Below are positions 28,176-30,023 of a stretch of 64,000 nucleotides of DNA, one piece after another (the first letter of the stretch is position 1; each line of letters begins with the position of its first letter). A program made the translations under genes and the position numbers. A model generated the notes under the pieces. That model saw only the letters and a program-made list of their open reading frames with translations. It did not search any database and was not told the DNA's origin. The DNA lies in the NCBI GenBank assembly GCA_037951105.1, contig JBAMJV010003307.1, forward strand, positions 186,001 through 250,000, read 5' to 3'. Source of the stretch: Echinarachnius parma. Lineage: Eukaryota; Echinodermata; Echinoidea; Clypeasteroida; Echinarachniidae.

Positions 28176-28444
28176 ATACAGTTAACAACACAATTATTCA
28201 TACCCCTAGTGGAATTTCAGTTTTTTATGTTTTTCGGAAAAACGACAGATGGACACACACTATTTTGGCCGTAGTTGGATAGCTTTAGTTGAAAGGTAAA
28301 CATTCAGAATGGTTTTTGTATAACCTCATTTGCATAACAAAGAGCATACTGCTTTGTTTGTATTTTGACTTGCTCAAAATTATTCATACCCTTTGTCAAT
28401 AAAACTATAAAAGACAATGTCACACTCAATATTCAATTGCAAAG

Positions 28445-28908
28445 CCTTTGTTCTTGATCACAGCATCCAGGCGGTTTCTGTAGCTGTTCACGAGGGTTTG
28501 GCAGAGCTCCACAGAAATTTTGGCCCACTCTTCCTTGGCGAAGACCTCTAGTTCTGTCAGGTTGGAGGGCCTGCGGGGATGCACCCTAGCCTTGACGGTT
28601 TTTCACAGATTTTCAATGGGATTCAAGTCCGGGCTTTGACTTGGCCATTGTAGCACCTCCACGCTGTTATCCTGGAACCATTTCTTGACTGCCTTTGCTT
28701 TATGTTTAGGATCGTTGTCCTGTTGGTATGTCCAGTATGGGACAATATGGAGATTTTCTGCAGACTGCCTGATGTTGTCTTCCAGAATTTGGAACATGTA
28801 CTCCTCCTTCATCATAATGCCTTCTACCTTTATAAGACTGCCAGGTCCACTTGCAGAGAAACAACCCCAAAGCATGATGCTCCCACCACAAAACTTCACG
28901 GTTGGCAC
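28445..28908 (-). pseudogene. Tc1 transposase C-terminal half (left arm)
   Basis: The minus strand encodes [20 protein letters not shown], then [23 protein letters not shown] and [16 protein letters not shown] follows where Tc1 transposases normally have a tryptophan. Beyond it the frame continues ([18 protein letters not shown] ... LVNSYRNRLDAVI) to a natural end. The second aspartate and the glutamate of the DDE triad are present. The first aspartate and the whole DNA-binding domain are missing from this arm. Confidence 0.85.
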
Positions 28909-28910
28909 AG

Positions 28911-29608
28911 ATTGGGTGAGATGGGCACCAAGGTTTCAGTGCAGACTATACACCGCACACTGCACAAGGAAGGGCTACATGGTTGTCGTCCAAGGAAGAC
29001 CCCTCTCCTCACTCAGAATCATTGTAAAGCGCGACTTACATTTGCCAGAGAGCACCGAGACAAGGATCAACATTTCTGGTCATCAGTTCTATGATTAGAC
29101 GAGACAAAGATGGAGCTTTTTGGCCACAGGGATGTTTCCTTCGTTTGGCGCAAGAAAGGCGAGGCATACAACCAAAAGAACACTGTGCTAACCGTGAAGT
29201 TTGGTGGTGGGAGCATCATGCTTTGGGGTTGTTTCTCTGCAAGTGGGCCTGGCAGTCTTATAAAGGTAGAAGGCATAATGAAGAAGGCGCAGTACATCCA
29301 AATTCTGGAAGACAACATCAGGCAGTCTGCAGAAAATCTCCATATCGGCCCATACTGGACATACCAACCGGACAACGATCCTAAACATAAAGCAAAGGCA
29401 GTCAAGAAATGGTTCCAGGATAACAGCGTGGAGGTGCTACAATGGCCAAGTCAAAGCCCTGACCTGAATCCCATTGAAAACCTGTGGAAAACCATCAAGG
29501 CTAGGGTGCATGCTCGCAGGCCCTCCAACCTGACAGAACTAGAGGTCTTCGCCACTGAAGATTGGGCCAAAATTCCTGTGGAGCTCTGCCAAACCCTCGT
29601 GAACAGCT
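28911..29608 (+). pseudogene. Tc1 (DD34E) transposase, N-terminally truncated
   Basis: The plus strand reads the end of the DNA-binding region (VSVQTIHRTLHKEGLHGC) and KARLTFAREH. A TGA at 29092-29094 then falls within the WSSVL-W-SDET motif. The frame resumes with [23 protein letters not shown] and [16 protein letters not shown]. The catalytic residues are D at 29098, D at 29371 and E at 29476, with 34 residues between the last two, as in Tc1 (DD34E). The frame ends at TAA after TLVNS. Without the helix-turn-helix region and with the stop it is inactive. Confidence 0.9.
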
Positions 29609-30023
29609 AAAGAAACTGCCTGGATGCTGTGATCAAGAACAAAGGCTTTGTAAATGACTATTGACTGTGATATTGTCTTTTATAGTTTGTATTGACAAAG
29701 GGTATGAATAATTTTGAGCAAGTCAAACTACAAACAAAGCAGTATGCTCTTTGTTATGCAAATGAGGTATTACAAAAACCATTCTGAATTTTTACCTTTC
29801 AACTAAAGCTATCCAACTACGGCCAAAATAGTGAGTGTCCATCTGTCGTTTTTCAGAAAAACATAAAAAACTGAAATTCCACTAGGGGTATGAATAATTG
29901 TGTTGTTAACTGTATATGTGGATTGATATGCACCATATCCCACAGATTACAGGAAAATTCCATTAACCCAAGGACTTCACTGAAAATCCTTGAGATATTT
30001 AATACAGTGCCTTTGATATTTAC

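Follow-up and report, generated by a model that had tools for sequence, protein, structure and literature searches.

The kind of rearrangement considered here has already been published for other transposons. In Rhodnius prolixus, the mariner lineages Rpmar49 and Rpmar17 carry their 3′ part in place of the 5′ part, which gives them long terminal repeats (TIRs), and the excerpts of the paper drawn on here propose that they arose by a deletion between two close copies (written there as head-to-tail) through abortive gap repair (PMC4678618). In the same excerpts, the varying breakpoints seen in 227 copies are read as later deletions and not as repeated origins (PMC4678618). A second system is Mu killer of maize, a member of the Mutator superfamily, for which dominant silencing of MuDR was shown and a hairpin RNA was proposed as the means; according to the parts of the report used here, both of its TIRs come from the transposase-gene end (PMC3440606). 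Sleeping Beauty-like (DD34E) Tc1 elements, as portrayed in passages of a third paper, have one full transposase of ~340 aa (PMC9777934).

The element described here lies in a 64-kb stretch of Echinarachnius parma DNA (the window). As in Rpmar49 and Rpmar17, a 3′ part with transposase homology stands in opposite orientation in place of the 5′ part, hits are obtained on both strands and the ends abut TA. The E. parma element differs from these lineages in being a Sleeping Beauty-type Tc1 rather than a mariner element, and in being single in the window, whereas the excerpts on Rhodnius report 13 independent copies of Rpmar49 and an analysis of 227 rearranged copies by breakpoint; the replaced part of Rpmar49 is also shorter (221 bp) (PMC4678618). 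Like Mu killer, as presented in the parts of that report used here, it is internally deleted and partly duplicated, with two partial transposase copies and an inverted duplication, but its transposase is of the Tc1 type and not of the Mutator type (PMC3440606). To the rearrangements known in Rhodnius mariner and maize Mutator elements it contributes one of Sleeping Beauty type. The literature searched holds no description of this exact element, and the passages of PMC4877112 and PMC3573991 that were covered contain no such structure. We regard the E. parma case as clean but ordinary, with a joint and two ends that can still be read. Tc6 of Caenorhabditis elegans, on which Dreyfus and Emmons wrote in 1991, is also said to be a palindromic Tc1-related element, of ~1.6 kb, and to form a repeated family.

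The two inverted copies occupy positions 28179–28910 (left arm, minus strand) and 29183–29912 (right arm, plus strand), as located by a repeat search and local alignment, and they enclose a spacer of 272 nt (28911–29182, plus strand). The repeat search split the similarity into three collinear blocks in inverted orientation, 414 nt long (93%), 229 nt long (97%) and 115 nt long (94%), which local alignment merged into one match of 28176–28910 with 29183–29915, comprising 698 matches in ~730 columns. The arms differ in this alignment by 34 substitutions (12 transitions and 22 transversions) and two indels, one of 3 nt in the left arm (28794–28796) and one of 1 nt in the right arm (29689). A blastn search of the window with the element as query (E ≤ 0.01) gave an arm-versus-arm match of 733 columns at 94.8%, with E printed as 0.0, and besides this and the match of the element to itself detected neither additional copies nor fragments of the family. 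The similarity between the arms is far above chance. The arm lengths given in an earlier note on this DNA (732 and 730 nt), together with its coordinates and spacer, proved exact. The TA dinucleotides that were said to flank the whole element can be seen at 28177–28178 on the left and 29913–29914 on the right. The palindrome extends one base pair past the TA (28176/29915) and then ends, the flanks printed beyond that base pair containing no further inverted match. A simple sister-chromatid fusion was considered and rejected, since it would also have copied the flanks, which are not palindromic.

Judged by its sequence, the element belongs to the Sleeping Beauty-like (DD34E) Tc1 transposons. 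The catalytic domain is 59% identical to that of Sleeping Beauty SB100X over 164 residues and matches the Pfam profile DDE_3 (PF13358, 54.7 bits), and a hand count on the translation places 34 residues between the second D and the E that we take to be catalytic. The TA target, the two direct repeats in each TIR and this DD34E spacing are all as in Sleeping Beauty-like elements. The spacer contains the single-copy middle of the transposase, from within the second HTH to the start of the catalytic domain. Its match to HTH_Tnp_Tc3_2 (PF01498, 66.3 bits), presumably the second HTH of the transposase, starts at profile position 27 of 72. From here a reading frame runs through a linker into the right arm and DDE_3, and ends at a stop codon at 29662–29664, and on the minus strand the left arm codes for this C-terminal part too, DDE_3 included. 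The first HTH is absent, as is all that would lie 5′ of it, and nothing of the gene precedes the HTH_Tnp_Tc3_2 match. In place of an intact transposase with two N-terminal HTH motifs, the element has a partial HTH and a frame with in-frame stops. The proposal of a Tc1 element with a second, inverted 3′ half where its 5′ half would be expected is supported, its Tc1 character being shown by the identity to Sleeping Beauty.

Not all of the arm length is abnormal. Each arm begins with CAGTT and contains a pair of 22-nt direct repeats whose starts are 186 nt apart: the outer and inner repeats of the left TIR are at 28189–28210 and 28375–28396, and the inner and outer repeats of the right TIR are at 29695–29716 and 29881–29902. 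Sleeping Beauty-type Tc1 transposons are known to carry two direct repeats per TIR, and for this reason the outer ~225 nt of each arm probably represents the ordinary long TIR of the family, as far as we can infer its normal length. Tc1 TIRs had been characterised in the earlier note as short or moderate, in contrast to these arms. That contrast was overstated, because in the parts of a survey of SB/ZB elements available to us 330 of 350 intact elements have TIRs of 180–300 bp (PMC9777934), and ~225 of the 730 nt in each arm therefore require no special explanation. The abnormal part is the inner ~505 nt only, made up of ~23 nt and the 3′ part of the transposase gene; it is here that the C-terminal coding region occurs a second time, in inverted orientation.

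The forward gene and the inverted C-terminal part are joined at 28910–28911. Arm homology stops at 28910, and homology between the spacer and Sleeping Beauty begins at codon 28912–28914, a start taken from an alignment to 5unk that is weak alone (E 0.047) and that adjoins a stretch matching 5cr4 at 1.5e-5. The two coding pieces meet cleanly inside the gene, with at most ~1 nt between them. Homology is unbroken through the TIR and the coding part, with its outer limit at the TA and its inner limit inside the gene. The nesting of one copy within another was rejected as an explanation: the joint is inside coding sequence and has no TIR.

The palindrome probably originated in the joining of two 3′ halves during DNA repair, either by template switching in gap repair or by deletion between head-to-head copies. 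We put at about an even chance the reading that it is a defective Sleeping Beauty-like Tc1 (DD34E) copy of two 3′ halves produced by template-switching gap repair. Under such a scheme, a coding-competent element would have been excised and the gap refilled from the sister or homologous copy. The strand extending from the left end would copy the TIR, slip to the inverted TIR at the opposite end, which is nearly identical, and continue from there backwards through the 3′ part of the gene. Synthesis from the right end would proceed inward up to the second HTH, after which the two strands would be end-joined. Any origin has to account for outer ends that are exact, a joint that lies inside the gene and flanks that are not palindromic, and both this route and the head-to-head deletion considered below do so. 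In its favour, abortive gap repair is also the process named for the corresponding replacement in Rhodnius mariner elements (PMC4678618). With two complete ends, the resulting element could still be mobilised in trans.

Alternatively, two Tc1 copies may have lain head to head and a single deletion may have removed both N-terminal halves along with the DNA between them, an origin that we consider a genuine, if tentative, possibility. Both TAs are expected in this case, one being brought by each copy at its outer limit, and differences at 34 of ~730 sites plus two indels are what separate copies may show. The excerpts on Rhodnius lean in the same direction, in that the authors' hypothesis there is a deletion between two close copies (PMC4678618). 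Against this, the lack of any other copy or fragment of the family in the 64-kb window means that dense insertion is not evident. Template-switching gap repair is in our judgement, which is not itself a result, slightly ahead of the two-copy deletion, because it needs only one element and makes use of TIR homology. The TA pair does not help to choose: every Tc1 end abuts TA, and the suggestion that the product, bounded by a single TA pair, had moved or been fixed as one unit gains no support from the dinucleotides offered as evidence for it. If the genome holds sibling copies, their arms and joints would separate template switching from two-copy deletion.

Differences between the arms bear on both origins. 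The spacer frame contains a TGA at 29092–29094; in the left arm only, a Trp codon of the right arm is replaced by TGA (28603–28605, minus strand), and in the right arm only, a Tyr codon has become TAA (29608–29610). These stop codons leave the element, whose N-terminus is also lost, without a working transposase, as a defective, non-autonomous, dead copy. When the translations of the two arms were compared, no stop or frameshift common to both was found, which indicates that the sequence from which both derive was coding-competent in this region. Comparison by eye of the 14 differing residues with the corresponding Sleeping Beauty segment showed the Sleeping Beauty residue in the right arm at five positions and in the left at two, with seven uninformative, and private changes have therefore accumulated in each arm. 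The 26 coding differences are spread over codon positions 1, 2 and 3 as 7, 8 and 11. Taking each site singly, eight of them are synonymous, where 21% would be expected in the absence of selection (p = 0.23), and the arm differences look neutral with no sign of constraint. This slight and non-significant excess of synonymous changes also speaks against the two-copy deletion, given that copies from an active lineage might show more.

Overall the arms diverge by 4.7% (JC 4.8%). Divergence is 6/225 in the TIR and 28/505 in the body, a difference that is not significant (p = 0.13). The differences are somewhat clustered, 16 of the 33 gaps between them being 8 nt or less (p = 0.013, with a threshold picked after the data were seen). 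This clustering and the extent of the divergence count against a single-element origin and would suit two copies that had diverged beforehand. The differences are also rich in transversions, although not significantly so (p = 0.08): the transition:transversion ratio is 12:22 between the arms and 64:58 among other duplicated pairs in the window. The latter figure sums 10 of 12 computed pairs, hand-picked from 17 direct families and the 25 listed of 96 inverted pairs, and leaves out two overlapping pairs (7:2 and 6:2) that are both transition-rich. Separately, four substitutions and the 3-nt in-frame indel fall within ~20 nt (29277–29296, opposite 28794–28816), possibly a small conversion or repair patch.

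The same differences make it unlikely that the palindrome is an assembly error or a chimeric molecule uniting two different copies. Misassembly is, as a matter of general knowledge, common at long inverted repeats. However, the arms of a chimera produced by snap-back or amplification would be expected to be identical, and here 34 sites and two indels differ; moreover, both outer ends are exact and clean homologous coding sequence surrounds the joint.

Any transcript across the element would be expected to fold into a long hairpin. The fold predicted for the plus strand has 702 arm–arm pairs in register, and the arms have 11 perfect runs of 29–90 nt in common. This prediction is a consequence of the palindrome itself and does not speak for a role. 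It nevertheless invites comparison with Mu killer: the palindrome might be retained as a silencing locus, an animal equivalent with a hairpin transcript that supplies small RNAs directed against active relatives. The architecture is like that set out in the parts of PMC3440606 used here, and the in-register pairs and perfect runs would suit such a function. On the other side, folding of this sort is expected of any similar palindrome, and the arms are drifting apart with no visible constraint. We think this function very improbable, and about as improbable is the more complete scenario, in which a Tc1 palindrome generated by aberrant transposition gives rise to a hairpin transcript and has been retained for its silencing of active relatives. 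The importance of the element would come only from a silencing role, if true.

Relatives were also sought beyond the window. Searching the right-arm protein against viral contigs gave two candidates, at one of which (L001) a 20-residue match at 60% was found (tblastn E 0.001); this locus may be a distant relative. A three-row alignment search retained none of 64 candidates in viral contigs and none of 56 in genome contigs. A 19-base TIR pattern was absent from viral contigs and present at eight loci in genome contigs, which were taken as chance occurrences, none having a second TIR-like match at another place in the locus or a hit to the transposase with E below 1. The two of these eight that were inspected, which have the longest matches (L003, 25 nt; L008, 22 nt), are alike in sequence and by eye belong to one bacterial gene. 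Searches of plasmids (DNA) and phages (protein) gave no match to the element. Within the window, a Pfam search with 10 open reading frames out of the 45 listed gave no match, and Rfam and ARAGORN found nothing.

The window contains other repeats. An imperfect palindrome of ~560 nt at 21427–21988 (72% over 576 columns) has TTAA at both ends and is flanked by a TTAA-bounded 65-nt direct repeat (21366–21430 and 21985–22049, 97%), so that the whole spans 21366–22049; a flanking duplication of 65 nt seems unusually long for a foldback or MITE-like element. A 137-nt repeat forms an inverted pair 13 kb apart (13040–13176 and 26446–26582, 89% alike). Finally, a dispersed repeat with three listed copies consists of an ATAATA tract followed by a stretch with TATAGCGC; relative to the copy at 14933–14993, those at 38188–38248 and 39685–39745 are 85% and 61% alike, respectively.
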